A DNA stretch of 64,000 nucleotides, taken from Longimicrobium sp. Its GTDB lineage: Bacteria > Gemmatimonadota > Gemmatimonadetes > Longimicrobiales > Longimicrobiaceae. The translations under genes and the position numbers were made by a program. Location: assembly GCF_035474595.1 (NCBI RefSeq), contig NZ_DATIND010000091.1, positions 1 through 64,000 on the forward strand. Direction: 5' to 3'. Under the pieces are notes generated by a model. That model was given only the letters and a program-made list of their open reading frames with translations, was not told the DNA's origin and ran no database searches. The stretch's first letter is position 1. Each line of letters begins with the position of its first letter. Below are positions 6,594-55,472 of the stretch, in pieces.

Positions 6594-6630
6594 AAAAAAG
6601 CCCGGCCCGCGGAGACGTCCGCGGGCCGGG
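6594..6630 (-). terminator. Rho-independent terminator of multicopper oxidase B
   Basis: Palindrome CCCGGCCCGCGGA / TCCGCGGGCCGGG at 6601-6630 with AAAAAA immediately left, which is a U-run in the minus-strand transcript. It is nearly identical to the terminators at 153 and 12787. Confidence 0.85.
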
Positions 6631-6666
6631 GAAAATGGTTTCGTTCGCGGGCCGGTCAGATCGCCA

Positions 6667-12096: not shown

Positions 12097-12327
12097 GATG
12101 GGGCTCCTCCGTGGGACCGGTGAGCGGGACGGCGGCGGCCGCGGCTCGTGGCGCGCGCCGCCGGATGGGGGTGATGCGAGGCGGGGCTTTCTCCTGGGAA
12201 CCGGGTGGGCGGAGAGGGTGGATAGCGGCTTCCAGAGGCAAGCGCCGCTCCCCACTAACGTTTACCGCCAACTAGATGCAGAGCCGGGAGATGCGGCGAA
12301 GGTGCGACAAAGCGTCCTCTCCCCGCG

Positions 12328-12374
12328 CGCACAGAAGGTGTGCACGGGCGCTGGATGGCGGCACAGGTTCTGTG
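12328..12374 (-). promoter_or_regulatory. Conserved palindrome pair upstream of oxidase B
   Basis: CGCACA-GAAGG-TGTGCA at 12328-12344 and CACAG-GTT-CTGTG at 12362-12374. They have the same arrangement as upstream of oxidases A and C, about 230-280 bases before the ATG. Confidence 0.6.
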
Positions 12375-12499
12375 TAGCGGATGAGAGGGAAGGGAGATGC
12401 GGGTCGTCCGAGAGATGGATCGCATTATTGAGGAGATTCGATCGGGTTATTTCTCGCGGGGGATGAGGCTGGTGCGTCTCCCCACGCCGCGGACCCCTG

Positions 12500-12655
12500 A
12501 CCCCGTCCACCAAAACCGACTGGGGGGAGGGGGAGACCTCATCGCGAGGAGAGGCTTTCAGTGCGGAACGGAGACATCCTGCCCGCCTTGCTGGCCCTCT
12601 CCCCCGGCCCCTCCGCCCGCTCCGCGCGGGAGGGGAGAACTCAGTGCATGGCGAG
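12500..12655. repeat. Dispersed GC-rich hairpin repeat (copy 2)
   Basis: Two conserved halves, each with a long G-run against a C-run: a GGGGGGAGGGGGAGACCTCA type half and a CTCCGCCCGCTCCGCGC type half. A 'CATCCTGCCCGCC' spacer joins them. Near-identical sequence recurs in other intergenic gaps of this window in both orientations. Confidence 0.7.
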
Positions 12656-12779
12656 CCTTCGTCGCATCGCCGCAATGCCGGGGTGGGGTTCGCGGGGGAC
12701 GCTGGAACGCGCGGCAAGCCTGGACTGCGGTGAGTATCTTCGTCCTGATCGAGCGGTGATTACTCCATCCGCGCGAGAG

Positions 12780-12816
12780 AAAAAAGCCCGGCCCGCGGAT
12801 GTCTCCGCGGGCCGGG
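12780..12816 (-). terminator. Rho-independent terminator of multicopper oxidase C
   Basis: CCCGGCCCGCGGA...TCCGCGGGCCGGG at 12787-12816 with AAAAAA on the left (a U-run in the minus-strand transcript). Third copy of the terminator shared by the oxidase genes. Confidence 0.85.
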
Positions 12817-12861
12817 GTTGAAGTGTGCCCGATCCGGAATCTCAGTCCATCGCCCTCGCCG

Positions 12862-15800: not shown

Positions 15801-18357
15801 GCTGCAGGTTCTCCTGCGCCCCCTTCCAGGCGGTGTCGCCCTGGAAGCCGGCGTAGGGGTGATACTGCGCCACCGGGCACGCCGTCGTCCCGTCGCGGGC
15901 GTCGCCCGAGTTGCGGCCGGTGCAGCCGTTCTGCAGGCGGATGGCGCGGATGATCTCGCGCACCGCGTCGGGCGCCAGCGCGCCGTCCTCGTAGTTCCAC
16001 CCGTTCGCCGCGCCGTCGGACGAGGTCACGTCGAACTTCACCAGGTGGATGTGCTGCCCGATGATGTCGGTGGGCGTCTGCACCTGGAAGTCGTCGACCT
16101 TGTAGTCCTTGGGGATCAGGTTGACCAGGTGGTAGGTGAGGCAGGCGTTGTTGCGCGCCCGGAAGAAGAGCGGCTCCGGCGCCTTCGTCCGCGCGGTGAA
16201 GCCCGCCACGTCGCCCCACAGGCTGAACATGCGGTGCTGGCCGTAGCTCCACTGCGCCTTGTTGTAGAACGCGGTGATCTGGATCCCCGCCGCCTTGTAG
16301 TCCACCGAGTCGCCCATCCGCACCCCGCGAATCCCGCACGGGTCGGCGAAGGGGGCGCCCGGCGCGGCCGGCAGGCCGTTCGTCTCGAACGTCCCGTTGG
16401 TCGTCCACAGGTTGGCGATCGGCGTGGTGTAGCCCAGGCGCGCGTGGAAGCGCATGGCCACCTGCTCGTCGGTGGTTCCCGTGTTCGGGAGCCAGTTCAC
16501 GGTCAGCAGCGAGTCGGCCTTGCTGAAGTCGCGCGTGTTCAGCGCCGGGAAGACCGAGACGCCGCCGGTGACCACGTGCCGCGGCAGCCCGCCGTCGAAG
16601 GCGAGATCGAGCGGCGGCTGCGGCGGACGGTGGCCCGCGACGCCGGGGATGTAGAAGGGGAAGCCCTTCATGCTGTCGGTGGGCAGCGGCGCCAGCGCGT
16701 AGGTCGGCATCGGCACCACCGCGGGGATCGGCGCGCCGGCGGCGATCTCGCCGTCGGGAAGCGCGCGCGCGCCGGGGGCGGGACGGCCGTTCACGTCCAG
16801 CACGGTGCCGCCCTCGAACACGTCGTGGTTGCGCCACAGCCCCCACATCCCCTGCGCGAAGTGGGGATAGAAGTGGCAGTGGAAGATGGCGTCACCCGGC
16901 GTGTCGTTGCGGTTGCCGCTGCCGCCGTAGGTGATCTCGTAGGTGAACGCCCCGCCGGGACCGATCGCCTGGCTGTCCTTGTAGTTGGAGAGCGAGTCGT
17001 TCGGCGTGTTGATCCACTGGTGCGCGTGCAGGTGGAAGATGTGGTGCTCCTTCGGACCGGCGTGAAGGTTCCGGATCTTCACGTGGTCGTTGATGTAGCT
17101 GTGGAAGACGTTGCTCGGGTCGTCGGGGAAGAGCGCCTTGGTCGCCCGGGGCCCCGGTGCCGGCGGGTGCAGCGGGTCGAAGTCCGCCGCGGCGGGAACG
17201 TCGACCACCATCGCCGGGTCGCCCACGGCCCAGGCGGAGAGGAAGAACTCCTCGAACTTGCAGTCGTTGCACTTCCACATCGGGCCCAGGCCGAAGCGGT
17301 TGGCCAGGATCTCGGCCCCGATGCCGCCGGTGCCGTAGTTGATGGCGAAGGCGTCGCGCCCGCCCTGCAGCGTGTACTTGAAGGTGGTGCTGTCGAAGAT
17401 GGGGTTGAACGCCTGCACCAGCCCCACCTCGTCGTGGAAGATCACCGTGTGCTCGCGGAAGGGCTTCAGCCGGTCCGGGAACACGGGCACGGTGGGGTTG
17501 GCGTACGCCGCCGAGGCGAAGTTGCTGCGGTTGGGGCCGGTGATGATGGCGCTGATGTCGCTCCACACGAGGGTGTCGCCCTTCAGCATCGACAGGATCG
17601 GCCGCCCGGCCAGCGGGCCCGAGGCGTAGCTCGCCAGGTAGTTGATCTTGGGATAGCCGTTGGCCGTCTGCGCGTTCCCCGCCGCGTCCAGCGAGGCCAG
17701 GCGCATGTCCTCGGCCGTCACCTGGCTGCGGTAGTACTCGGCGCCCGCGGGCTCCACGTTCACCGCGCCGAACAGGCCGCGCCCGATCTGCCCGCCGTTG
17801 CCCTCGCCGCCCGTCATCTGCGCGGTGGAGTACAGGAGGTAGGTGCCCTCCTTCTCCGCGAACAGCAGGTAGGTGAGGGACGAGCCGGGAGAGACCAGCG
17901 AGCTGGCGTTGGCCTGCACCGCGCTCCCGTCGTCGGCGATGGTGCGCACCAGCTGCATCCCGTTCACGTGGATCGAGACGTCGCGGGTGCTGTCCGGGTG
18001 CGTGGGCCCGGCCGGCGAAAGCAGGTTGCGCAGGGTGATCTGCAGGCACTCGCCCGCGTTCACGCGCAGGACGAGCGGACGCGGGCGGCGGCCGGCGCGC
18101 AGCTGCGCGTTCCCGGCGCTCGCGGCGCCGCCGGTGCTGCTGACCACGTCCTGCTCCAGCGCGAACATCAGCGCGTCGGGGGCGTTGGCGCCCAGGCGGT
18201 TGTACCAGATGAACTGCTCCAGGGCCGCCACGCGGGCGACCTTGGTCTTCGCGCACTGCGCCGCCAGCGGCGCCGCGCCGGCCAGCGTCAGCAGCAGCAT
18301 GGCCACCAGCCGCGCCGCTCCGCGCCAGGGTGGTAGGGATGGGGATGCACTTCGCAT
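12862..18357 (-). CDS. Giant secreted multicopper-oxidase-like protein C (1,831 aa)
   Basis: Third paralogue and the first to be transcribed from the right. ATG at 18357 opens a signal peptide (LVAMLLLTLAGAAPLAAQ). The ribosome site is weaker than for A and B (only an AGGA about 13 bases upstream). It carries the same His motifs: HHIFHLHAHQW near residue 440, HCHFYPHF near 495, THDHFGPSTHQQ near 875, and LHGHVWEQEP near 1720. It has a longer Thr/Ser/Ala linker than B around residues 1215-1400 and a Thr-rich stretch before the CTVDPQTGATVC tail. Divergence is concentrated in linkers while motif blocks are nearly invariant, as expected for retained duplicates under selection. Confidence 0.85.
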   Translation of the reverse strand: MRSASPSLPPWRGAARLVAMLLLTLAGAAPLAAQCAKTKVARVAALEQFIWYNRLGANAPDALMFALEQDVVSSTGGAASAGNAQLRAGRRPRPLVLRVNAGECLQITLRNLLSPAGPTHPDSTRDVSIHVNGMQLVRTIADDGSAVQANASSLVSPGSSLTYLLFAEKEGTYLLYSTAQMTGGEGNGGQIGRGLFGAVNVEPAGAEYYRSQVTAEDMRLASLDAAGNAQTANGYPKINYLASYASGPLAGRPILSMLKGDTLVWSDISAIITGPNRSNFASAAYANPTVPVFPDRLKPFREHTVIFHDEVGLVQAFNPIFDSTTFKYTLQGGRDAFAINYGTGGIGAEILANRFGLGPMWKCNDCKFEEFFLSAWAVGDPAMVVDVPAAADFDPLHPPAPGPRATKALFPDDPSNVFHSYINDHVKIRNLHAGPKEHHIFHLHAHQWINTPNDSLSNYKDSQAIGPGGAFTYEITYGGSGNRNDTPGDAIFHCHFYPHFAQGMWGLWRNHDVFEGGTVLDVNGRPAPGARALPDGEIAAGAPIPAVVPMPTYALAPLPTDSMKGFPFYIPGVAGHRPPQPPLDLAFDGGLPRHVVTGGVSVFPALNTRDFSKADSLLTVNWLPNTGTTDEQVAMRFHARLGYTTPIANLWTTNGTFETNGLPAAPGAPFADPCGIRGVRMGDSVDYKAAGIQITAFYNKAQWSYGQHRMFSLWGDVAGFTARTKAPEPLFFRARNNACLTYHLVNLIPKDYKVDDFQVQTPTDIIGQHIHLVKFDVTSSDGAANGWNYEDGALAPDAVREIIRAIRLQNGCTGRNSGDARDGTTACPVAQYHPYAGFQGDTAWKGAQENLQRWWVDAVPRGAGTSTPLPTIFTHDHFGPSTHQQTGLYAGLLPEDSATQWRDPENPTVFYGTRFDGGPTSWRADILYPSAPRRSFREFGIQIADFSLAYGQEGFAGSAGRTPPINPPGKIDVGLPHLLRPPLAGTCPNGSSSALGCPEIISADDPGTMLINYRNEPLALRVRNPATNSQPADTTGDLSLAYSSRPIRRDTRLNTFGPYGARVGELPRDPYTPLMRTYEDDRILIRLLVGAHEEGHNWGINATRWLFERLEPNSGFRASQMAGISEWHEFALNPLLANKSDTVADFQYRGGSAVDDQWNGTWGIIRAYRSPRKDLARLDDFRPVSSSRDGALKDAAAGRRAHSDGETAYRTSTTFPASDDSTTWKGDVATLDATSPTSPATAQPGTSTMNATAIATSSDSVQAGYGNDAQGGIQYDIFEYDPDTGTEYVATSDPNAPSKALQPSSTQLTADTASTAPASPGTLSMSANGTSSGTSSAPVFQSISGSGNVGFWGVCPRLAPLRLYEISAIPATALPGGRLVYNTRTTNGGPLYDPTAVVYVYDADLVSGKLTRNPEPLILRANAGDCVLVRLRNRLPNALPDINGFNTLPMIVDQFNANQVVPSARVGLHAQLVSLDVQYSDGSQVGANRNTTVAPGGWRWYQWYAGTVYPMSNGHLRATPAEFGAINLTSSDRIQHSNKGAIAALIVEPANTKWVVNPANRAAAVIQNRSTGATLFKEGVLLFQDDVNLLFGSAVTLPAVNCAAPLDGELPPECRTASGIASHTFAAGAPVPNLGGEDDAEDSGEKGLNYRTEPLWFRKGFAPDADFGLTRNLQFKSVLQGDSAQTPIFRVTAGDSVRLRVLEPQGHARNHVFVLHGHVWEQEPYADSSRVIAHNPWSEWKGSRDGHGPGEHFEVIPRHGAGSINRVPGDYLFRDEAAFGFDFGIWGILRVLPPSGATTTTTTGGASNPGQGSATLDNCTVDPQTGATVCN

Positions 18358-18662
18358 GGGCGTCGTCCGTCCTGCCTGGTGAATGGATGGTTCCGGGTGG
18401 GATTCCCCGCGCACCGGCGCCCGCGCCTCCGGCCTTTGCGGGAGCGTGCCCACGCCCGGGCGCGGTGAGACGCGCCGGGCGTCTGGAGACGTGTGGCGCC
18501 GCGGGTGCCGGCCATGCCGAGCCGGCGGGTACGCGGGCGCCGGTGCGCGGGGAATCCGCCGCCGCCCAAGGCACCATGCGTTCCACTACAGATGTTTTAC
18601 GCCAAGTATCTGCAAACCGGCGAGATGGCCCTCAACCAGACATTCCGCAACCCCGCCCCGCG
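18358..18662. other. Leader region of oxidase C
   Basis: About 300 bases between the palindrome pair and the gene. No ORF is supported. A TTTTACGCCAAGTA-type segment at about 18595-18610 matches corresponding segments upstream of A (about 6108) and B (about 12258), so core promoter or leader sequence is conserved in the three copies. Confidence 0.45.
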
Positions 18663-46683: not shown

Positions 46684-46716
46684 CAGCCCCGCCCGGACGC
46701 GCTCCGGGCGGGGCTG
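46684..46716 (+). terminator. Terminator after E1; left copy of the island-flanking hairpin
   Basis: CAGCCCCGCCCGGA / TCCGGGCGGGGCTG arms with a short loop, about 40 bases past the E1 stop. The hairpin plus the following GGTCG(C/T)TGCCGGG matches the sequence at 53846-53892 in the same orientation. Confidence 0.75.
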
Positions 46717-46760
46717 GTCGCTGCCGGGAGATGCCTGACGGTGCTGGAACGGGAGCGCTG

Positions 46761-46898
46761 GCGATAGAGCGCGCCTTCTATGGATAGAATCCCCGCCCCT
46801 CGCCGCCGTTCCTGGAGATCCGGCCCGGAATCCACGCAAATGGTTTGCAACGCAGGGACTTAGCCCACAGGGTGAAAAACGGTATGCAGCCTGCCTTC
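46761..46898 (+). promoter_or_regulatory. Three-element upstream region of precursor 1
   Basis: GCGATAGAGC at 46761, TTCTAT-GG-ATAGAA palindrome at 46776-46789, GCAAA-TGG-TTTGC palindrome at 46836-46848, and ACGGTATGCAGCCTGCCTTC at 46879-46898. The start codon follows 45 bases later. The same order and spacing recur at the other precursor units. Confidence 0.6.
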
Positions 46899-46943
46899 CA
46901 GAGGGACGTTCACCCGGTGGAATCTCTACCCTGGAGGCACCTC

Positions 46944-47096
46944 ATGTCCGATCCCAGGAACGCGCACGACGACGAACTGTCCGTGGAGGAGCTCGACACG
47001 GTCGCCGGCGGCGTCGAGGGCGACAACACCAACTGCTCGCAGAGCTGCACCTCGAACACGAACTGCGGCGGGACCAAGGAACCGATCTGGGTGTAA
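46944..47096 (+). CDS. RiPP precursor peptide 1 (50 aa)
   Basis: ATG 46944 after CTGGAGG. Leader MSDPRNAHDDELSVEELDTVAGG ends in a double glycine (stated here in parts: acidic head, ELSVEEL, VAGG). The core begins VEGDNTNC and carries C-SQS-C-TSNTN-C, a C-x3-C-x5-C pattern rich in Asn/Thr/Ser, with the tail GGTKEPIWV. The leader style matches double-glycine leaders of ribosomally made peptides. The nearby radical SAM/SPASM protein is the presumed modifying enzyme, perhaps forming thioether or C-C links to the Cys/Asn/Thr positions. The mature product is unknown. Confidence 0.82.
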   Translation: MSDPRNAHDDELSVEELDTVAGGVEGDNTNCSQSCTSNTNCGGTKEPIWV

Positions 47097-47113
47097 CCTC
47101 CGCACGCGTGCAC

Positions 47114-47152
47114 ACCGCCGCCCGGCTCGCGCCGGGCGGCGGTTCTCGTTTC
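47114..47152 (+). terminator. Terminator of precursor 1
   Basis: ACCGCCGCCCGGC / GCCGGGCGGCGGT perfect 13-bp arms at 47114-47143 followed by TCTCGTTTCT. Confidence 0.8.
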
Positions 47153-47207
47153 TATCGGGCGATGGAACGGCTTCTCCGCTCGCGAAAAAGGTGGAGGCGG
47201 GGCCCTC

Positions 47208-47345
47208 GCGATAGAGCATCGGGTCTATGGTTAGATCTCCGGCGCGAGCCACGACGACCCCCAAGAATATGGTCGCAATCGGCACAAGTTCATGCCCGGT
47301 ACCGGCCTGGCGAATCGGGGCGCGAACGGTATGCCTCGTGCCTTC
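47208..47345 (+). promoter_or_regulatory. Three-element upstream region of precursor 2
   Basis: GCGATAGAGC at about 47209, TCTATGGTTAGA at 47224-47235, a CACAAGTTCATG element near 47284-47297, and ACGGTATGCCTCGTGCCTTC at 47326-47345, 49 bases before the ATG. Confidence 0.6.
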
Positions 47346-47394
47346 CTCCGGACGCAGACGGATGCACATCTCATCACCGCAAACGGAGGCACCC

Positions 47395-47556
47395 ATGGCT
47401 GACGATCCCAGGCGCGAAGACGAACTGTCGGTGGAAGAGCTCGACAGCGTGGCCGGCGGCGTGATCGGCGACAACACCAACTGCTCGCAGGGCTGCACCT
47501 CGAACTCGAACTGCGGCGGGACCAAGGAACCCACCACGGGACCGGTCTGGGTGTAA
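47395..47556 (+). CDS. RiPP precursor peptide 2 (53 aa)
   Basis: ATG 47395 after ACGGAGG. Leader MADDPRREDELSVEELDSVAGG, core VIGDNTNCSQGCTSNSNC then GGTKEPTTGPVWV. Same C-x3-C-x5-C spacing as precursor 1, and a nearly identical tail lengthened by TTGP. Its upstream leader, coding part and terminator are close copies of precursor 3's, so the two arose by duplication. Confidence 0.82.
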   Translation: MADDPRREDELSVEELDSVAGGVIGDNTNCSQGCTSNSNCGGTKEPTTGPVWV

Positions 47557-47574
47557 CGCCGCCAGCGCGTCGCT

Positions 47575-47612
47575 CCGCCGCCCGGCTCCCGCCGGGCGGC
47601 GGTTCTCGTTTC
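47575..47612 (+). terminator. Terminator of precursor 2
   Basis: CCGCCGCCCGGC / GCCGGGCGGCGG arms at 47575-47602 followed by TTCTCGTTTCT. Near-copy of the terminator of precursor 1. Confidence 0.8.
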
Positions 47613-47663
47613 TACCGGCGGTGGAACGGCTTCTCCGCTCGCGCGAAGGTGGAGGCGGGGCCC

Positions 47664-47800
47664 CCGCGATAGAGCATCCGGTCTACGGGTAGACCCCCGG
47701 CGCGCGTCCCCGATCGCTCAAGGATATTGTCGAATCGGCGCAAGTTATTGCCCTGCACTGGCCTGGCGATTCGGGCCCGGACGGTATGCCTCGTGCCTTC
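47664..47800 (+). promoter_or_regulatory. Three-element upstream region of precursors 3-4
   Basis: GCGATAGAGC at 47666, GTCTAC-GG-GTAGAC palindrome at 47681-47694, GCAA-GTTA-TTGC palindrome at 47740-47751, and ACGGTATGCCTCGTGCCTTC at 47781-47800, 49 bases before ATG 47850. No precursor 4-specific copy exists, so 3 and 4 probably share it. Confidence 0.65.
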
Positions 47801-47849
47801 TTCCGGACGCAGAGGGATGCACATCTCATCACCGCAAACGGAGGCACCC

Positions 47850-48011
47850 ATGGCCGACGATCCCAGGCGCGACGACGAACTGTCGGTGGAAGAGCTCGAC
47901 GCGGCGGCAGGCGGGCTGGGCGACAACACCAACTGCTCGCAGAGCTGCACGTCGAACAGCAGCTGCGGCCCGGTCGTCAAGGAACCGACCCAGGGACCGA
48001 TCTACGCGTAA
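47850..48011 (+). CDS. RiPP precursor peptide 3 (53 aa)
   Basis: ATG 47850 after ACGGAGG. Leader MADDPRRDDELSVEELDAAAGG, core LGDNTNCSQSCTSNSSC followed by GPVVKEPTQGPIYA. C-x3-C-x5-C pattern kept. First of a two-gene unit with precursor 4, 71 bases apart, separated by an imperfect terminator-like hairpin. Confidence 0.82.
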   Translation: MADDPRRDDELSVEELDAAAGGLGDNTNCSQSCTSNSSCGPVVKEPTQGPIYA

Positions 48012-48029
48012 CGGCCTCCGCGCGTCGCT

Positions 48030-48066
48030 CCGCCGCCCGGCTCCCGCCGTGCGGCGGTTTTCATTT
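48030..48066 (+). terminator. Imperfect terminator between precursors 3 and 4
   Basis: CCGCCGCCCGGC / GCCGTGCGGCGG: the same hairpin as after precursors 1 and 2, but one arm carries a T where the others have G, breaking one G-C pair. TTTTCATTT follows. The ribosome site of precursor 4 (GGAGG) lies just after it, so partial read-through is likely. Confidence 0.6.
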
Positions 48067-48082
48067 CGCTCCGGAGGCGATC

Positions 48083-48235
48083 ATGGCCGATCCAGAGGAA
48101 CCGCGGGAAGAGGAGAAGGAGATTTCGGTCGACGAGCTCGATTCGGCCGCCGGAGGGAGCATCGAGCCGAACATCAACTGCGTCTGCGATCCGCCCCCTC
48201 CGAACGGAGCCAGCTGCCAGGCCGCCACGCTATGA
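48083..48235 (+). CDS. RiPP precursor peptide 4, divergent core (50 aa)
   Basis: ATG 48083 after CCGGAGG. The leader is unusually acidic (MADPEEPREEEKEISVDELDSAAGG, in parts: EEPREEEKE then ISVDEL, AAGG). The core SIEPNINCVCDPPPP then NGASCQAATL replaces GDNTNC-x3-C-x5-C with a C-x1-C pair, a tetra-proline stretch and a third Cys nine residues later. The conserved N-x-N-C entry (NINC) remains. It may be modified differently or be a decaying copy. Confidence 0.75.
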   Translation: MADPEEPREEEKEISVDELDSAAGGSIEPNINCVCDPPPPNGASCQAATL

Positions 48236-48270
48236 CGGAGATGGCCGCGGCGCGACGCCCGGGCCCGGGA

Positions 48271-48404
48271 CGATAGAGCGTCCGGTCTACCGGTAGACGC
48301 CCGGCGCGCATCCGCGATCCGCGCCGGGTGCGGCCCCGTCCGCGCAAACTCCTATCCTGCAACAACATCGCGGTTTGGCAGGAACCGGTATGTCTCGTGC
48401 CTTC
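48271..48404 (+). promoter_or_regulatory. Three-element upstream region of precursor 5
   Basis: CGATAGAGCG at 48271, perfect palindrome GTCTAC-CG-GTAGAC at 48285-48298, GCAAACTCCTATCCTGC at 48344-48360, and CCGGTATGTCTCGTGCCTTC at 48385-48404, 47 bases before the ATG. Confidence 0.65.
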
Positions 48405-48451
48405 CCCCGCCGCGGTCATCCTGCACATCTATCACCGCGAATGGAGGCACC

Positions 48452-48607
48452 ATGTCCGAGCCCATGAATCTGCGCGACGACGACGAGCTGTCCGTCGACG
48501 AGCTCGACACCGTGGCCGGTGGCGTCGAGGGCGACAACACCAACTGCACGCAGGCCTGTACGTCGAACACCAACTGCAGCGGCGGCTGCTCCGCCCAGGC
48601 GTTGTAA
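48452..48607 (+). CDS. RiPP precursor peptide 5, four-cysteine core (51 aa)
   Basis: Short gene on the plus strand, ATG 48452 after ATGGAGG. Leader MSEPMNLRDDDELSVDELDT then VAGG, core VEGDNTNCTQACTSNTNC then SGGCSAQAL. It has the standard C-x3-C-x5-C plus a fourth Cys after SGG, giving C-x3-C-x5-C-x3-C. Own upstream elements and own strong terminator. Confidence 0.82.
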   Translation: MSEPMNLRDDDELSVDELDTVAGGVEGDNTNCTQACTSNTNCSGGCSAQAL

Positions 48608-48648
48608 GGCTCAGAAGCAGCATCGCGCGCGAGGGCGCGCGCGCGCGA

Positions 48649-48697
48649 CCAGCGGCCCCGCGCATCCACGGATGCGCGGGGCCGCTGGGCTTTCTGG
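48649..48697 (+). terminator. Strong terminator of precursor 5
   Basis: 19-bp perfect arms (CCAGCGGCCCCGCGCATCC / GGATGCGCGGGGCCGCTGG) at 48649-48688 around a 2-base loop, then GCTTTCT. Confidence 0.85.
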
Positions 48698-49014
48698 ACA
48701 TTGTGAGTAATTCTATGTGTCTATTTGCGGTAACCCCCTGTTCGCTCAGAAGTGATCTCGCCCCGCCCACGATCCCCGTCGGTTTGTGCCAACAATCCTG
48801 CATGCCTGTGTGTAGCGGTGTGGCACTACCGCGATAGAGCCTTTGGTCTACAACAGGCAGCAGAACTCTATGGGCCAATTCGCAATTCATTGGCAGAAAA
48901 CGCGTAATGGGCCGCCCCGCACGTACTTCAATCGAATGACCCAAATGGCGCATGATATGCTCAAGTATGTCCCCGACGGTACGATCCCACTCAACCCTAT
49001 CAGTGGAGGAATGC
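48698..49014 (+). promoter_or_regulatory. Degenerate upstream region of precursor 6
   Basis: GCGATAGAGC at 48831 is intact. The palindrome has only its left half (GGTCTAC then AACAGGC) at 48845-48857. A GCAATTCATTGGC element lies at about 48882-48894. ACGGTACG at 48976 is only about 32 bases before the ATG and lacks the GTGCCTTC end. The first 100 bases are AT-richer with no feature. Confidence 0.45.
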
Positions 49015-49164
49015 ATGTCCGACCCCAAGGAGTTCCGCGCCGAAGACGGGGAGCTGAGCGTCGAAGAACTCGAAGCAGCAGCAGGCGGAGACGGTGACAA
49101 CCTCCACTGCACCATCAACACCAACTGCACCCAGGGCTGCCTTCCCACAGTAGATCCTCAGTGA
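49015..49164 (+). CDS. RiPP precursor peptide 6, permuted Cys pattern (49 aa)
   Basis: ATG 49015 (an ATG four bases upstream is in another frame) after AGTGGAGG. Leader MSDPKEFRAEDGELSVEELE then AAAGG, core DGDNLHCTINTNCTQGC then LPTVDPQ. The spacing is C-x5-C-x3-C, the mirror order of the family's C-x3-C-x5-C: the NTNCTQGC block sits at the second Cys rather than the first. Either a block shuffle or an insertion before the canonical start. Confidence 0.8.
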   Translation: MSDPKEFRAEDGELSVEELEAAAGGDGDNLHCTINTNCTQGCLPTVDPQ

Positions 49165-49338
49165 CCAGGTCGGTTTCTCCGCCACCGCCGCGGCGTAGCG
49201 GGTGCGCATAGCGGCGGAGGCGAGAGGAATGTACTCGGTGAGGCGGCCGGGAGGCAGTTCGGGAAGTGCGGAATCGCACCGGCGCACGCGCGGGGGAGCA
49301 ATACAGACACCTTCGAACACGATGGAGCACCGGCACGG

Positions 49339-49473
49339 GCGAGTAGAGCCCCCGGTCTATCCGTAGACGCCGGGCGCCGTGGGAGAGCCGCGCCGGACGG
49401 AGGCGTGCGCGGCGCAAGTGAGTGCGGCGGAAGCGCTTGTAAAAGGGGCGGGAAACGGCACAACGCCTGCCTC
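49339..49473 (+). promoter_or_regulatory. Three-element upstream region of precursor 7 / maturase operon
   Basis: GCGAGTAGAGC at 49339, GTCTAT-CC-GTAGAC palindrome at 49355-49368, GCAAGTGAGTGC at 49413-49424, and a weak ACGGCACAACGCCTGCCTCC at 49454-49473, 57 bases before the ATG. The rest of the 49165-49530 gap shows no gene. Confidence 0.55.
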
Positions 49474-49530
49474 CCGGTTCCCCCCGCAGGCTCACCCGTC
49501 TCATTATCTCTCCCACACCCGGAGGCACAC

Positions 49531-49677
49531 ATGGCCGACCCCAAGGACATCCGCGAAGACGAGCTGTCGGTCGAGGAGCTCGAGGACGCCGCCGGCGGCA
49601 TCATCGGCGACAACACCAACTGCTCGCAGGGCTGCACGTCCAACAGCAACTGCGGCCGCGAGCCCGCTCTCGGCTGA
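49531..49677 (+). CDS. RiPP precursor peptide 7 (48 aa), first gene of the maturase operon
   Basis: ATG 49531 after CCGGAGG. Leader MADPKDIREDELSVEELEDA then AGG, core IIGDNTNCSQGCTSNSNC then GREPALG. Canonical C-x3-C-x5-C. It is 110 bases upstream of the radical SAM gene with a hairpin between, the usual precursor-first order that gives more precursor than enzyme. Confidence 0.85.
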   Translation: MADPKDIREDELSVEELEDAAGGIIGDNTNCSQGCTSNSNCGREPALG

Positions 49678-49692
49678 CGCGGGACGGTGCCG

Positions 49693-49727
49693 CACCTTCG
49701 CCCGGGCGCCATGCCCGGGCGAAGGTG
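49693..49727 (+). promoter_or_regulatory. Intercistronic hairpin between precursor 7 and the maturase
   Basis: CACCTTCGCCCGGGC / GCCCGGGCGAAGGTG perfect 15-bp arms with a 5-base loop and no T-run. Likely an mRNA-stabilising or attenuating structure rather than a full terminator. Confidence 0.6.
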
Positions 49728-49787
49728 GAGAGGGCGCCGGGCGATGCGCGCCGGGCGGCGACCCAACGAACCAGGAGATGACGAGTG

Positions 49788-51245
49788 ATGACGCCGACCA
49801 CCGACATGTTCGAGTCCCCGCACGACCGCAACGGTACCGCCCTCGCCACGACATCCCTGGTGCAGCTGCGCTACAAGGCCGCGCAGCGCTGGGTCCCCTC
49901 GCGCTACAACGCGCGCGCGGTCGGCGACGACGGCCGGCTGATGCTGTGGAACACGCTGAACGGCACGATCAGCGTCTTCGCCCCCAAGGACCGCGACCGC
50001 GTGCTCGAGGCGCTGTCGGTGGAAGGGGTCCGCGAGCCGCTGGGCAAGGCGGGCGAGTACCTGACGCGCCGCGGCTACCTGGTGCGCGAGGGCGTGAACG
50101 AGCTGGACATCTTCCGCTACCGCTACGCCAACGACCAGTGGCGGCAGGACACCCTGCAGCTGATCCTGCTGGCCAGCGAGGACTGCAACTTCCGCTGCGT
50201 GTACTGCTACGAGAAGTTCGAGCGCGGCACCATGACCCCCGAGACGCGGCAGGGGATCAAGGCGCTGCTGGACCAGCGCGCGCCGCGGCTGAAGGAGTTC
50301 AGCGTCTCGTGGTTCGGCGGCGAGCCGCTGTACGGCTGGGACGCGGTGAGCGATCTGTCGCCCTACTTCCGCAAGACCTGCGACGAACACGGGATCCGCT
50401 ACGGCCAGCACATGACCACCAACGCGTACCTCCTGACCGAGGAGCGCGCCACACACCTGCTGGAGTGGGGGTGCCGCAACTTCCAGATCACGCTCGACGG
50501 GCTGGCCGAGGAGCACGACTGCAAGCGCGTGGGGCGCGACGGCAGCGGCACCTTCTCCACCATCCTCGACAACCTGCGCTCGCTGCGCGAGCGCCGCGGC
50601 GAGGAGTTCGGCGTGGACCTGCGCGTGAACTTCGACCGCAGCAACTTCCCCAAGCTGGGGCCCTTCCTCGAGGCCATGAGCGAGGAGTTCGGCGGCGACA
50701 CGCGCTTCCGCATGCGCTTCCGCGCGGTGGGCAAGTGGGGCGGCGCCAACGACGCCAACCTGGACACCTGCGGCACCACCGACAGCCGCACCTACATGCG
50801 CGAGCTGCAGGAGCGGGCCAAGCAGCTGCAGCTGGGCCAGGAGGCGGGGATCCGCGAGATCGCCACGCTGGGCAGCCAGGTGTGCTACGCCGCGCGCCCC
50901 TTCAACCTGATCGTGGGCGCCACCGGTCAGCTGATGAAGTGCACGATCGCGCTGTACGACATGCCCGAGAACCGCGTGGGGCAGCTGCACCCCGACGGCT
51001 CGCTGGAGCTGGACGACCTGAACATGAGCAAGTGGGTGAACCCCCACTTCGAGACCGACGCCATGTGCCAGAGCTGCCACGTCCTTCCGGGGTGCCAGGG
51101 CGGCCACTGCCCGCTGTCGCGGGTGACCAGCGGAACGCGCACCTGCTGCACGGTGAAGAGCAACCTGAAGCGCGAGATGCGCTTCACCATGGCCGACATG
51201 GCCGAGGCCGCCGCGGCGCGCGCCGCCGAACCCCAGCCCGTCTGA
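49788..51245 (+). CDS. Radical SAM/SPASM peptide maturase (485 aa)
   Basis: ATG 49788 (GTG 49785 possible) after CAGGAGATGACGAG. Residues 1-125 form an N-terminal domain (SRYNARAVGDDGRLMLWNTL) resembling the leader-binding front part of other SPASM peptide maturases. The radical SAM core follows, with C-NFR-C-VY-C at residues 133-140 binding the [4Fe-4S] cluster and SAM, FGGEPLYGWD, and a TIM-barrel order. The C-terminal SPASM region (about 365-460) has a Cys near GSQVC, another 17 residues on, then CQSC, PGC, GHC and CC, enough for two auxiliary clusters. Expected to install a radical-derived crosslink or epimerisation in the precursors. Only one such enzyme is present for eleven precursors. 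Confidence 0.9.
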   Translation: MTPTTDMFESPHDRNGTALATTSLVQLRYKAAQRWVPSRYNARAVGDDGRLMLWNTLNGTISVFAPKDRDRVLEALSVEGVREPLGKAGEYLTRRGYLVREGVNELDIFRYRYANDQWRQDTLQLILLASEDCNFRCVYCYEKFERGTMTPETRQGIKALLDQRAPRLKEFSVSWFGGEPLYGWDAVSDLSPYFRKTCDEHGIRYGQHMTTNAYLLTEERATHLLEWGCRNFQITLDGLAEEHDCKRVGRDGSGTFSTILDNLRSLRERRGEEFGVDLRVNFDRSNFPKLGPFLEAMSEEFGGDTRFRMRFRAVGKWGGANDANLDTCGTTDSRTYMRELQERAKQLQLGQEAGIREIATLGSQVCYAARPFNLIVGATGQLMKCTIALYDMPENRVGQLHPDGSLELDDLNMSKWVNPHFETDAMCQSCHVLPGCQGGHCPLSRVTSGTRTCCTVKSNLKREMRFTMADMAEAAAARAAEPQPV

Positions 51246-51256
51246 GGAGCGCGCCC

Positions 51257-52429
51257 ATGACCGCCACCCTTTCCCCCGCCCCGCCGCGCGCCGCGGCCCC
51301 GGCGGCCGCAACCGTCCCGGGCGCGGTGCTCCTGAGCCCCACCGACCGCATCGGCCGCAAGCCGCTGGTGGACTGGGCGGTGGAGCTGATGGGCCGGCTG
51401 GAGACCGCGCGCGCCGCCGGGCTGGACGCGCGCAACCTGGCCGGCGAGGTCGGCTCCATCGGCAACAACGCGGCGCTGATGGCCGCGCACCTGGGGCGCG
51501 GCACGCTGGCCGGCACCCTGTGCGAAACGCAGATCGAGTGGCACGCCCGGCGCGCTCGCGTGCTGGGCGACCCGGGGCTGAACGCCTACGCGGCCCAGCC
51601 CTGGGTGAACCTGGGGCGGCTGGAGGTGCTGCGCGGCCAGTGGGAGGCGGCCGTGGCGCGCTTCGGGGCGCTGGCCCAGTACGCGCGCGACGGCGAGCTG
51701 ATGGCCGGGTGCGCGCGCATCGACTCGGGCGCGTGGGCGGCCGTGACGCCCACGCGCGAGGAGTTCGAGGCGTTCCTGGAGACGGTGCGGGTGATGGACA
51801 CCTTCCGTGCGCTCCTGCTGAACCGCCGCTGGGACGAGATCATGGCCTTCCGGGCCGCCCTGGCCGACGACACCCGCCCCACCCTGCAGCGCGTGGGCGA
51901 CGAGGCGGCGGTGGTGGCCCTCGCGCGCCTGGGCGATCCCGAGGAGGCGCACGAGGTGGCGCTGTCCGCCGAGCGCCAGACCAGCGGATGGCACCGCGCG
52001 GTGTTCCGGGTGCGCCGCGGCGAGGCGCTGCTGGCCGCCGGCCAGACCGAGCGCGCCACGGGGCTGCTCGCGCAGATGGCCGGCGTGGTGGTGCAGCTCT
52101 CCCCCGAGGTACGGGGCGACCTGAACACCGTGTACGTGCTGAACCGGCTGGGGTGCACCCTGCGCGAGGCGGGGAGCCACGAGCACGCGGGAAGCGTCGG
52201 GCGGGCCATGCTGGAGGGTGCCCGCGCCGGCGGCGACCAGGTGCTGGAGATCGAGGCGCTGCGGCTCCTGGCCGGGATTCCTGACGACGCCGAGCACGCG
52301 CGGTGGACGGACGAGCTGTCGCGGCTCGAAGCCACCACGCGCTACGCCAAGTTCCGCAAGGGCGGCCCCGTCGAGGACCTGGAGATCGAAACGCTCTTCG
52401 ACGAGCTGCTGGACCAGTTCGCGTACTGA
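51257..52429 (+). CDS. Helical-repeat (TPR-like) partner of the maturase (390 aa)
   Basis: ATG 51257 after TGAGGAG, 11 bases past the maturase stop, so the two are co-translated. After an Ala/Pro-rich head the protein is nearly all helix, with TPR-like pairs (AYAAQPWVNLGRLEVLRGQWEAAVARFGALAQYA; WHRAVFRVRRGEALLAAGQTERATGLLAQMA, given here as approximate spans 115-150 and 250-285). No catalytic motif, membrane segment or zinc site. I do not recognise the family. By context it may bind leaders, act as a scaffold, or regulate the cluster. Confidence 0.7.
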   Translation: MTATLSPAPPRAAAPAAATVPGAVLLSPTDRIGRKPLVDWAVELMGRLETARAAGLDARNLAGEVGSIGNNAALMAAHLGRGTLAGTLCETQIEWHARRARVLGDPGLNAYAAQPWVNLGRLEVLRGQWEAAVARFGALAQYARDGELMAGCARIDSGAWAAVTPTREEFEAFLETVRVMDTFRALLLNRRWDEIMAFRAALADDTRPTLQRVGDEAAVVALARLGDPEEAHEVALSAERQTSGWHRAVFRVRRGEALLAAGQTERATGLLAQMAGVVVQLSPEVRGDLNTVYVLNRLGCTLREAGSHEHAGSVGRAMLEGARAGGDQVLEIEALRLLAGIPDDAEHARWTDELSRLEATTRYAKFRKGGPVEDLEIETLFDELLDQFAY

Positions 52430-52457
52430 GCGCCGGCGCGGCAATCAGCACGCGGAG

Positions 52458-52487
52458 AAAAGGCCCGGGCTCGCTCCCGGGCCTTTT
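52458..52487 (+). terminator. Terminator of the maturase operon
   Basis: AAAAGGCCCGGG / CCCGGGCCTTTT arms around CTCGCT, symmetrical A/T ends, 30 bases after the stop. Ends transcription before precursors 8-11. Confidence 0.85.
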
Positions 52488-52527
52488 CGCGTCTCCGTCA
52501 TCCCTTCTCCCTCCATGATCCCGTAAT

Positions 52528-52592
52528 CTCACGCGGAGACGCGGAGACGCGGAGGACCCGTAGTTCTCTGCGTCTCCGCGTCTCCGCGTGAG
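52528..52592. repeat. Long inverted repeat of CGCGGAGA units
   Basis: Perfect 23-bp arms (CTCACGCGGAGACGCGGAGA... and its complement) around a spacer of 19 bases. A similar inverted repeat is at 57840-57908, with single arms near 28150 and 56477. Not a T-tailed terminator. Confidence 0.75.
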
Positions 52593-52633
52593 GATCGGTT
52601 TTTCGAGATCCGGGTCGCCACGAGGGGTGCTCC

Positions 52634-52770
52634 GATGGATAGACCCGCCGCTCTATCGGTTAGATGCGGAGCGCCGGGGAAAGGTGCGTCCCCGCGCGGT
52701 ACGTTCAGGCGTAAGCAGTTGCGGCTGAACTGCTTGCGTTCGACGCGGAAACCGGTACGAGGCGTGCCTT
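52634..52770 (+). promoter_or_regulatory. Three-element upstream region of precursors 8-11
   Basis: ATGGATAGAC at 52635, TCTATCGGTTAGA at 52652-52664, an AGCAGTT/AACTGCT inverted repeat near 52714-52734, and ACCGGTACGAGGCGTGCCTT at 52751-52770, 63 bases before ATG 52834. Precursors 9-11 lack their own copy. Confidence 0.55.
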
Positions 52771-52833
52771 TGCATCACCCGGACAGGACCTTTCCGTCCT
52801 GCTCTCCCAACACTCCCGCCATCGGAGGAAGCC

Positions 52834-52992
52834 ATGGCCGACCGCAAGGACCGCGAACCCGCCCCGCAGGACTCCGACGAGCTGTCGGTCGAGGAGCTCG
52901 AGTCCGCCGCCGGCGGCATCGAGGGCGACAACACCAACTGCTCGCAGAGCTGCACCAGCAACAGCAGCTGCAAGCCGCCGCTCCTGGCCTGA
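52834..52992 (+). CDS. RiPP precursor peptide 8 (52 aa)
   Basis: ATG 52834 after ATCGGAGG. Leader MADRKDREPAPQDSDELSVE then ELESAAGG, core IEGDNTNCSQSCTSNSSC then KPPLLA. Canonical C-x3-C-x5-C. It begins a four-precursor run on the same strand downstream of the maturase operon. The KPPLLA end is shared with precursor 9. Confidence 0.83.
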   Translation: MADRKDREPAPQDSDELSVEELESAAGGIEGDNTNCSQSCTSNSSCKPPLLA

Positions 52993-53348
52993 CGAAGGCC
53001 CGCGCGCCTCCCCCGCCCGCACCCGGGCGGCGGAGGCACGCACGCACATCCACGCCGCGGCCGCGTCCGGCCGACTTTTCCCCAAGGAGGAGCATGTCCA
53101 GACCCGACGACCGGCCCCTGGCCGCCGCGCATGAAGACGAGCTTACGGTGGACGAGCTCGAGGTGGTGGCAGGCGGCGTGGAAGGCGACAACACCAACTG
53201 CGTGGAAGCCTGCACGGTCAACAACAGCTGCAAGCCGCCGCTCCTGGCCTGACGAGGGTCGGCGCGCCTCCCCGCCCGCACCCGGCGGCGGAAGCGCGCA
53301 CGCACATCACGCCGCGGCCGCGCCCGGCCGTCTTTCCCCAGGAGGAGC
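52993..53348 (+). repeat. Tandemly duplicated spacer units before precursors 9 and 10
   Basis: The spacers 52993-53093 and 53253-53348 are close copies (GGCGCGCCTCCCC, CGCACCCGG, CACGCACATC, CGCGGCCGCG words, ending in AGGAGGAGC). Together with the near-identical coding parts this indicates duplication of a roughly 255-base gene unit. Confidence 0.75.
53094..53252 (+). CDS. RiPP precursor peptide 9 (52 aa)
   Basis: ATG 53094 after AAGGAGGAGC, a very strong ribosome site. Leader MSRPDDRPLAAAHEDELTVD then ELEVVAGG, core VEGDNTNCVEACTVNNSC then KPPLLA. C-x3-C-x5-C kept, but SQS/TSN is replaced by VEA/TVN. It shares its start with precursor 10 and its end with precursor 8, as if mosaic. Confidence 0.83.
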   Translation: MSRPDDRPLAAAHEDELTVDELEVVAGGVEGDNTNCVEACTVNNSCKPPLLA

Positions 53349-53513
53349 ATGTCCAGACCCGACGACGACAGGATTCCGGCGGCCGCGCACGACGACGAGC
53401 TTTCGGTGGACGAGCTCGAGGTGGTGGCCGGCGGCGTGGAAGGCGACAACACCAACTGCGTGTACGCCTGCACCGTGAACAGCGGCTGCAAGGCCGCCGC
53501 GAGCGCCATCTGA
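53349..53513 (+). CDS. RiPP precursor peptide 10 (54 aa)
   Basis: ATG 53349 after AGGAGGAGC. Leader MSRPDDDRIPAAAHDDELSV then DELEVVAGG, core VEGDNTNCVYACTVNSGC then KAAASAI. Canonical Cys spacing. A recent duplicate of precursor 9 with a different last exposed segment. Confidence 0.83.
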   Translation: MSRPDDDRIPAAAHDDELSVDELEVVAGGVEGDNTNCVYACTVNSGCKAAASAI

Positions 53514-53538
53514 GCCACGCGCCCACGAAGGCGGACCC

Positions 53539-53715
53539 ATGCGAAAGCCGACGCCACACCCCGACCCGCCGGACCGTGCGCCCGACGAGCCGCTCGCGGT
53601 GCACGAGCTGGACGACGCTGCGGGCGGGATCGACAACGAGCCCAACGCGAACTGCGGAGTCGCGTGCTCGCTGGACCACAACTGCGCGCCGACCATCGGC
53701 CTGAACGGCGGGTGA
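53539..53715 (+). CDS. RiPP precursor peptide 11, divergent (58 aa)
   Basis: ATG 53539, 25 bases after precursor 10, with only a weak GGCGGA ribosome site. The leader is Pro-rich (MRKPTPHPDPPDRAPDEPLA) and the family word ELSVEEL has become PLAVHEL, though DDAAGG is kept. Core IDNEPNANCGVACSLDHNC then APTIGLNGG retains C-x3-C-x5-C and the N-x-N-C entry. The most leader-divergent member with a standard core; it tests how much leader the enzyme needs. Confidence 0.75.
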   Translation: MRKPTPHPDPPDRAPDEPLAVHELDDAAGGIDNEPNANCGVACSLDHNCAPTIGLNGG

Positions 53716-53845
53716 ATTCGCCATCGGGCAAAGACGGGCTCATGCAGAAAAGCAGAGGAGCAGAGACAGATTCTCTGTTCTCCGCTGCTCTGCGTGAACC
53801 CGTCTCCTGATCGACGCGGTTGATCCACCGATCGTCAGCAAGCAA

Positions 53846-53880
53846 CCAGCCCCGCCCGGATGTGCTCCGGGCGGGGCTGG
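53846..53880. terminator. Bidirectional terminator; right copy of the island-flanking hairpin
   Basis: CCAGCCCCGCCCGGA / TCCGGGCGGGGCTGG arms with a short loop between the end of the precursor run (+) and the metalloprotease gene (-). The plus-strand sequence continues GGTCGTTGCCGGG, as at the left copy (46684). Confidence 0.75.
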
Positions 53881-53902: not shown

Positions 53903-55183
53903 TTACCGGAAGGCCGCCACCGTGGGCGCCGTCAGGTTCAGCACCCGCGCGTTGTCCTCGTACGCGGTGGTCCCCATCACCTGCCCCGTGGCCGGGTAGG
54001 TCTTGAGCGGGTTCGACCACCACTGGATGCGCGTGCAGTTGGCGCAGTTGTTCCCGTACGCCATGATCGTCCGCCAGTTCTTGGTGGACGGGATGTAGCC
54101 GTGGCCGTACTGGTACGGCGTGAGGGTGCCGTCCACGAAGCGGTCGTGCCGGGCGCCCTGCAGGTGGCCCAGCTCGTGGCCGAACGAGTAGTAGCCGGTG
54201 ATGCAGCTCTGGTCCGCCGTGGCGAAGGCCGAGCTGGCGGTCGCCTTGATCGCCGCGGCCTGGCCGCACGCCTCGGTGTCGTTCACCACCAGCATCACCA
54301 GGTCGGCCGCGTAGGTGTTCCGCAGCGTGTGGACGTTGTCCATGATGCCGTCGGTGGTGCTCTGCAGCGCGCTCACGTGCTGCGAGAAGCTGCGGCCGGC
54401 CTCGCTGTACGTGACCTGGCCGGTGTACACGCGGTTGAAGGAGATGTTGATCCCGCTGTTCGCGTACGACTGGTTGGTCTCATCCACCGCGAGCTGGATC
54501 TTGCTGGTGATGTTGCCCGCCGCCGACGCGGCCGAGGCGGTGTACACCACCATGACGTTGATGGTGGTGAGCGCCGTCGCGCTCAGGGCGCCGGAAACGC
54601 GCGACGCCTGGATCCGGCCGGCGGCGTCGCTCATCTGCGTGGTCAGCGCGCCGCTGGGGTTGTCGGGCGTGTGCTCCGGCGGGAAGCCGCTCTGGTCGAT
54701 CTTCGACACGGCGTGCAGCCCGTTGCCGATCGGCTCGATGCTGTACTGCGTCTGGCCCACGGTCACCGTGGCCGTCACCTCGCCGTCCATCATCACCAGC
54801 TGCACCCAGCCGTAGCCTCCGCGGATGGGCCCGGACCAGGAGATGTCCTGCGCGGCACGCTGCGTGGCGTGCTCGCCGGTGGCCACCACCTGCAGCCCCG
54901 GCGCCACGCCCAGGCGCAGGACGCTCCCCTGCCGCAGGAGCTGGCCCGGCGCCGCCGCGATGCGCGCCAGGTGCACCTCGGCGGTGCTCGGGCGGTTGCG
55001 GATGGCGGCGAGGCGGCCGGCCTGCACGTTGTCGAGCGCGGCCTGGGGAACCAGGGTGAGCAGGTCCTGCTGGCCTGCCGCGGCGGCGCTCATCGAGGTG
55101 TCGGCGGGGCGGGTGATGTCGTCGCTCTGGCACGCGGCCAGACCGACGGATGCGGCGAGGACCAGCACGAGCGGTGCTTTCAT
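53903..55183 (-). CDS. Metzincin-type zinc metalloprotease lipoprotein (426 aa)
   Basis: ATG 55183 with GGAG upstream opens a lipoprotein signal (LVLVLAASVGLAAC, lipobox Cys near 20). The catalytic domain has HELGHLQGARHD (HExxHxxGxxH plus Asp, about residue 330) and a Met-turn candidate IMAYGNNC. A propeptide-like region of about 200 residues precedes it. Resembles reprolysin-like/peptidyl-Asp metalloendopeptidases. It is convergent to the precursor run. A role in trimming exported peptides or in killing the producer's competitors is speculation. Confidence 0.82.
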   Translation of the reverse strand: MKAPLVLVLAASVGLAACQSDDITRPADTSMSAAAAGQQDLLTLVPQAALDNVQAGRLAAIRNRPSTAEVHLARIAAAPGQLLRQGSVLRLGVAPGLQVVATGEHATQRAAQDISWSGPIRGGYGWVQLVMMDGEVTATVTVGQTQYSIEPIGNGLHAVSKIDQSGFPPEHTPDNPSGALTTQMSDAAGRIQASRVSGALSATALTTINVMVVYTASAASAAGNITSKIQLAVDETNQSYANSGINISFNRVYTGQVTYSEAGRSFSQHVSALQSTTDGIMDNVHTLRNTYAADLVMLVVNDTEACGQAAAIKATASSAFATADQSCITGYYSFGHELGHLQGARHDRFVDGTLTPYQYGHGYIPSTKNWRTIMAYGNNCANCTRIQWWSNPLKTYPATGQVMGTTAYEDNARVLNLTAPTVAAFR

Positions 55184-55472
55184 CGGTACGACTCCAGGAG
55201 TGGGGTGGGCTGGAAGGAGCAGCCACGCTGAAGGCATCCTCCAGGCCATTCCGCTCCGCGCGCGCCAACTCTCTGGAGATGCAGGTTTTAGCCGAAACCG
55301 TGCGTAAACATGTGTACGCAGGTGGCGATGCAGCCCGGGGCGGACCGCACCGATCTGAGGCAACAACTTGTTTTATGGGCTCCAATGCATCGAAGCAGAC
55401 AGTTCCCCGGGAGAAACGACCTTTAATCTATCCTTGTCTCTAAAGGTGCTCAATGTCTCCACGTGCCATCCA

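Follow-up and report, generated by a model that had tools for sequence, protein, structure and literature searches.

A Longimicrobium peptide array probably encoding NxxC ranthipeptide-like products of a radical SAM/SPASM enzyme

The first 64,000 nucleotides of contig NZ_DATIND010000091.1 of a Longimicrobium sp. assembly (GCF_035474595.1), hereafter the window, contain between positions 46684 and 53880 an island of eleven small Cys- and Asn-rich peptide genes, placed around one radical S-adenosylmethionine (SAM) gene with a SPASM domain and one helical-repeat gene. The analyses presented here suggest that this island probably encodes ribosomally synthesised and post-translationally modified peptides (RiPPs) of the NxxC ranthipeptide type, which would carry Asn-Cys beta-thioethers, lose their leader by cleavage and leave the cell through an NHLM transporter whose genes lie in trans. 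The initial annotation considered them a seemingly undescribed class. N-x-x-C is however the naming motif of the streptococcal NxxC ranthipeptides, in which Cys-S is bound to Asn-Cbeta (PMC8326336; PMC13361665), and the class can be named NxxC ranthipeptide-like; the new part is its many-substrate, two-ring, split-locus form. What the initial annotation observed is confirmed and its interpretation is partly supported.

A conserved Asn-x-x-Cys register in the precursor cores

The eleven precursor open reading frames (ORFs), of 48-58 codons each between 46944 and 53715, are each preceded by a purine-rich ribosome-binding site and can be aligned across leader and core, in agreement with the shared leader initially described; the leader type is EL(S/T)V(E/D)EL(D/E)..AGG, of which precursor 11 is a looser case. 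A six-frame scan of the window with the leader pattern retrieved no other precursor. The core entry GDNTNC, initially attributed to all eleven, is exact in eight and replaced by GDNLHC, EPNINC and EPNANC in the other three; as a degenerate DNA pattern it has 8 matches in the 6.57-Mb assembly, all in the island and all on the forward strand, and 0 with the reversed control. The C-x3-C-x5-C spacing is kept in nine precursors, as first reported, the fourth (48083) and the sixth (49015) being the exceptions.

Asn was already recognised around the Cys residues in the initial annotation, which missed its register: N-x-x-C is present in 11/11 precursors, Asn occupying position -3 of 21 of the 34 Cys. 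Two or more such motifs were counted in ten precursors, including precursor 4, whose two matches overlap (NINCVC), the second not being independent. Residues were counted around every Cys of ten clusters with different leaders, weighted equally, with core limits set by hand and several of the clusters mutually related; in this count the frequency of Asn at -3 reaches 0.50 versus 0.10 in shuffled cores, and none of 300 shuffles was as high. Asn at -1 and Pro at +1/+2 form smaller peaks; nothing similar was seen for Ser, Gly or Asp, and Thr is under-represented at -3. The cores are readable as repeats of an N-x-N-C-x3-C unit, whose middle Cys is without Asn at -3. This register was seen in the cores before the published NxxC precedent was found.

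The radical SAM/SPASM maturase

The single radical SAM/SPASM gene among the precursors (49788..51245, forward strand) codes for a presumed peptide maturase of 485 aa (P0001), with a PF04055 match at 5e-16, a CX3CX2C motif (C133/C137/C140) and the full set of seven SPASM cysteines (C366-C453); these ten cluster cysteines are kept in 42-43 of 43 relatives. Its AlphaFold2 model (mean predicted local distance difference test 84.7, predicted template modelling score 0.82) comprises a strand-rich then helical N-terminal region placed like a RiPP recognition element (RRE), a radical SAM barrel and a SPASM domain. The ranthipeptide hallmark cysteines (CX3CX2C and SPASM) are present in the sequence, and the RRE, with four strands then helices over residues ~30-105 (49875..50102, forward strand) and presumably leader-binding, is taken from the model only. 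By analogy of Cys spacing with the anaerobic sulfatase-maturating enzyme and CteB, C366, C385 and C441 would hold auxiliary cluster I with one open site, and C427, C430, C436 and C453 would hold auxiliary cluster II.

A Foldseek search with the model placed CteB, the SCIFF thioether synthase, first (E 1.6e-17, 459 columns); the sactisynthase SkfB was among the full-length similarities and ranked under CteB, and the epimerase EpeE came far below (2.7e-7). A sequence search of the PDB returned only CteB, 8vpo and, weakly, an anaerobic sulfatase-maturating enzyme.

A second locus with eight precursors and an exporter

Searching with the precursor alignment revealed eight further precursors with the same leader on another contig of the assembly, C64 (36811-38962; L065), with cores such as GNNTNCVAGCGNSNCVASCGPLNQTP and VEGNNTNCVAGCGNSNCVASCGPLNQTP. 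All eight contain N-x-x-C, two each, with Asn at -3 for 16 of 32 Cys; the middle Cys of the repeat unit is kept in all of them, as in nine of the eleven window precursors. C64 yielded no radical SAM gene; beside the precursors it carries an NHLM exporter (ABC1, 1075 bits for a cut-off of 853; HlyD, 351 bits for a cut-off of 156; a second ABC subunit), together with TolC, DUF7005, a periplasmic binding protein and a sigma-54-type activator.

In genome G008, exporter, DUF7005, activator, enzyme and precursors constitute one locus, with exporter proteins 81-85% identical to those of C64, and most of these parts lie within a single 20-kb stretch in G018, with ABC subunits 49-65% identical. Downstream of the window array lie genes for a 289-aa protein and YihY, whose counterparts beyond the G008 array are 79% and 67% identical, and the G008 enzyme is the partner of the window enzyme in the tree of enzyme relatives. 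The most economical interpretation is that a single ancestral locus now occupies two places in this genome. C64 likely comes from the same cell as the window contig, because its leaders are closer to the window leaders (44-61 bits for seven, 33 for the eighth) than those of G008 and G018 (at most 42).

As exporter, enzyme and peptides share one locus in these two relatives, one enzyme probably serves 19 substrates, 11 precursors in cis and 8 candidates in trans. The number of precursors per enzyme was initially regarded as atypical; such a number is uncommon among radical SAM RiPPs, although the prochlorosins offer a parallel. The most ambitious form of our proposal, a single enzyme acting in trans on 19 precursors of two loci to yield a combinatorial library of multi-ring Asn-Cys beta-thioether peptides leaving through one NHLM exporter, is a serious but tentative possibility.

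Distribution of the enzyme and its precursors in Gemmatimonadota

Four copies of the enzyme are present in this assembly (G000), one in the window (contig C91), one on contig C72 and two on C5; relatives occur in 7 of 21 genomes of the host family, and a sample of 395 genomes of the phylum yielded one more beyond the family. The co-occurrence proposed as a check in the initial annotation is observed for 10 of the 12 Gemmatimonadota copies examined, which adjoin Cys-bearing precursors (C91, C72, C5 twice, G001, G004, G008, G015, G018 and G168); of the remaining two, one (G014:C122) lies on a contig that starts just upstream of it. The precursors beside the other copies have quite different leaders and similar cores, among them ETDVNQNCYSCTCPP in G008, ETNIYCPTTNKESCNSGC in G018, DPNVNVQACYPNNCPP on C72, CDPGTSNQNCFCAS and CGPTTNLNCGCIPY on C5, CGPNTNCDGTCPPP in G168 and TNTTCSPSGPTTNAYC in G001. 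A search of titles and abstracts retrieved no description of such a system in Longimicrobium or Gemmatimonadota.

Other small-peptide loci were encountered in these genomes. A second run of Cys-rich peptides on C72 (L024, ~7400-8640) has another leader, of the IRLDPEALRVDSF type, and apparently belongs to another RiPP system. Four small peptides in a row, LSDESLEEVAGG(V/I)CS(W/V)S(G/S)CSN, lie in G014 (L067, C273:28116-29022), on a contig that yielded no close relative of the window enzyme. A C39-peptidase exporter near an ATP-grasp-like protein, recognised by eye on contig C11 of this assembly (L066, 26000-42000), possibly marks a graspetide cluster.

Relatives in Bacilli and the NxxC precedent

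In Streptococcus orisratti, NxxcB forms a thioether between Cys23 and the Cbeta of Asn20 of NxxcA (PMC8326336; PMC13361665). Searching with the window enzyme retrieved relatives in 25 of 399 sampled Bacilli genomes. In one of them (G561, L097), the enzyme gene is divergent from a neighbouring Rgg regulator (TIGR01716, 52.3 bits for a cut-off of 36.9) and adjacent to a 27-aa peptide, MIINEIVEHDFNQDYEIFKNLGCGSGC, with Asn20 and Cys23 at the positions published for NxxcA; the enzyme of this locus shows 32% identity over 419 aa to the window enzyme. The same NCBIfam model ranks first for the Rgg-linked, the other Bacilli and the Gemmatimonadota enzymes, always under its cut-off.

Where a small peptide could be recognised next to a Bacilli relative, it terminates in N-x-x-C in the majority of cases, some of which (L086, three times, L093, L096 and L100) were examined only once the hypothesis had been put forward. 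The tiny peptides terminate in NTNCNC, NNNNCNC, NYNCDCK, NENCNNCWC or NGNCHIC, and others hold VNINCYGC or TNYGC. Two of these loci (L086 and L088) display tandem, near-identical and very short precursors of 21-23 aa, ending in NNNNCNC or NTNCNC, beside the enzyme.

Proposed chemistry and alternatives

From these features we infer leader binding, chemistry, ring number and export in trans as follows. The RRE-like N-terminal domain of the maturase would bind the EL(S/T)VEEL..AGG leader, and a 5'-deoxyadenosyl radical generated at the C133/C137/C140 cluster would take a side-chain hydrogen from the Asn of each N-x-x-C. Closure of an Asn(i)-Cys(i+3) beta-thioether would follow, through a Cys thiol that the open auxiliary cluster of the SPASM domain probably keeps in place. 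Most precursors would acquire two small rings, with 2 Da lost per ring, the middle Cys being free, in a disulfide or otherwise linked. Cleavage after Gly-Gly would free the core from its leader, for export by the NHLM transporter encoded on C64, where the eight precursors are probable substrates of the window enzyme too. Interbacterial antagonism or signalling seems the likeliest role of the secreted products.

The same enzyme could instead make sactipeptides, by linking Cys-S to the Calpha of the Asn at -3 or, hairpin-like, to a later Ser, Thr or Asn. Asn, Ser and Thr are among the known sactipeptide acceptors (thurincin H, RumC, streptosactin) and the full-length fold similarity extends to SkfB, but SkfB ranks under CteB, the link in the best precedent with Asn at -3 is a beta-thioether, and the Asn-Cys register is short and fixed rather than hairpin-like, so that we consider this alternative unlikely. 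A combination of two chemistries, with N-x-x-C beta-thioethers accompanied by another kind of link at the middle Cys, would account for a residue so widely kept yet without Asn at -3; the window island has no second modifying enzyme, a free thiol or disulfide is simpler, and the combination appears quite improbable. Radical chemistry of another kind, such as epimerisation or some other mark placed on Asn or Thr, would leave Cys to serve only in disulfides or as metal ligands; it could draw on the conserved extra Cys328 as a hydrogen donor, as in epimerases, and on an N-x-N spacing that could suit alternating marks, but is likewise quite improbable considering the much poorer structural match of EpeE and the Cys at +3 that is the constant partner of Asn under unrelated leaders.

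Several observations weigh against our main proposal itself. Attachment at the alpha or the beta carbon is not settled by sequence. Cys328 (window ~50769-50771), outside the known clusters and kept in 36 of 43 relatives, is unexplained, possibly a ligand or a hydrogen donor. The maturase scores far under every NCBIfam equivalog cut-off (181.3 of 525 bits for TIGR04463) and reaches 99 of 340 bits with the PapB model. Equating the Rgg-linked relative with the published NxxcA/NxxcB pair depends on the N20/C23 coincidence, and some Bacilli relatives (L091, L094, L098, L099) present Asn at -4 or -2 instead. C64, finally, could be foreign to the assembly, whose contamination is 3.95%; a comparison of its composition with that of C91 favours neither side.

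Organization of the array and neighbouring genes

All precursor genes are on the forward strand. Upstream of the maturase lie precursors 1 (46944..47096, core VEGDNTNCSQSCTSNTNCGGTKEPIWV with two N-x-x-C), 2 (47395..47556, VIGDNTNCSQGCTSNSNCGGTKEPTTGPVWV), 3 (47850..48011, LGDNTNCSQSCTSNSSCGPVVKEPTQGPIYA), 4 (48083..48235, divergent core SIEPNINCVCDPPPPNGASCQAATL with one N-x-x-C), 5 (48452..48607, VEGDNTNCTQACTSNTNCSGGCSAQAL with four Cys), 6 (49015..49164, DGDNLHCTINTNCTQGCLPTVDPQ with C-x5-C-x3-C) and 7 (49531..49677, IIGDNTNCSQGCTSNSNCGREPALG). Precursors 8 (52834..52992, IEGDNTNCSQSCTSNSSCKPPLLA), 9 (53094..53252, VEGDNTNCVEACTVNNSCKPPLLA), 10 (53349..53513, VEGDNTNCVYACTVNSGCKAAASAI) and 11 (53539..53715, IDNEPNANCGVACSLDHNCAPTIGLNGG with one N-x-x-C and one D-x-x-C) follow the helical-repeat gene. 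Several of these genes are probably separate transcription units, because strong intrinsic terminators follow precursor 1 (47114..47143, forward strand, 13-bp stem) and precursor 2 (47575..47602, forward strand, 12-bp stem), the first seven genes are spaced by 72-408 bp, and a CGGTATG...TGCCTTC stretch, found by eye, is shared upstream of precursors 1, 2, 3 and 5. The sigma-54-type activator prompted a search for a sigma-54 promoter (TGGCAC-N5-TTGC) upstream of the precursors, where nothing near the consensus was found, and the sigma-70 consensus search gave 0 sites.

The helical-repeat gene (51257..52429, forward strand) encodes a 390-aa all-helical protein, in line with its first description, with a weak tetratricopeptide repeat (TPR) match and a modelled TPR-type solenoid. 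It is kept beside the enzyme in G018, C72 and G168 and absent from the G008 locus. An assignment to a known regulator was discarded, the fold matching generic TPR proteins only, and PlcR weakly; the protein may handle or sense peptides.

Facing the last precursor is an M12/reprolysin-like metallopeptidase gene (53903-55249, reverse strand), at the counterpart position of which G008 has an S41 peptidase. Elsewhere in the window, three consecutive ORFs of ~1,860-1,880 codons (216-18453, reverse strand), alike in size and base composition, are possibly tandem relatives.

Comparison with known systems

In the publications consulted, the little-studied NxxC ranthipeptides come from a few streptococci and have one ring per peptide; the motif is now placed in Gemmatimonadota and scattered in Bacilli, and is linked to a defined enzyme clade. 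The island shares with NxxcA/NxxcB the Asn-x-x-Cys core and a SPASM enzyme homologous over most of its length to the Rgg-linked Asn20/Cys23 relative. It differs by its 11, probably 19, precursors instead of one, by two motifs per peptide, by a Gly-Gly leader with an NHLM exporter, and by an identity to that relative of only 32%. No Rgg gene was found in the island, the sigma-54-type activator sitting with the exporter instead.

The RRE, radical SAM and SPASM architecture is that of the SCIFF and PapB systems, CteB being the best full-length structural match. PapB acts on Cys-x3-Asp, with an acceptor after the Cys (PMC9413430), whereas the acceptor would precede the Cys in the island. TIGR04463, CefB (NF038107) and Clo7bot give the best NCBIfam scores, in nearly the same order for the window and the Rgg-linked enzymes; membership was rejected because none of these scores exceeds about a third of the corresponding equivalog cut-off. 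Family membership in Nif11, SCIFF, PapB and NHLP was likewise rejected, all scores being under the cut-offs (for the NHLP leader family TIGR03793, 11.6 bits for precursor 2 against 50.9). The array resembles NHLP/NHLM export systems in its association with NHLM ABC1, ABC2 and DUF7005 in G008 and G018 and in its leaders ending in AGG, but these leaders, of ~22-35 aa, are without the nitrile-hydratase-like domain of true NHLP precursors.

With a RiPP locus that has apparently come apart into two, one for the exporter and one for the enzyme, the system would offer ~19 natural substrate variants for one enzyme, so that one could directly test which substrates are tolerated, in what order the rings close and how the middle Cys is used, with a mass shift predicted for each peptide. 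In this it recalls the prochlorosins, for which one LanM serves many precursors with a shared leader (PMC10783134). Prochlorosins combine lanthionine chemistry with Nif11 leaders, whereas the island probably combines radical thioethers with short AGG leaders; if our reading is true, it would represent a radical-chemistry counterpart of the prochlorosins.

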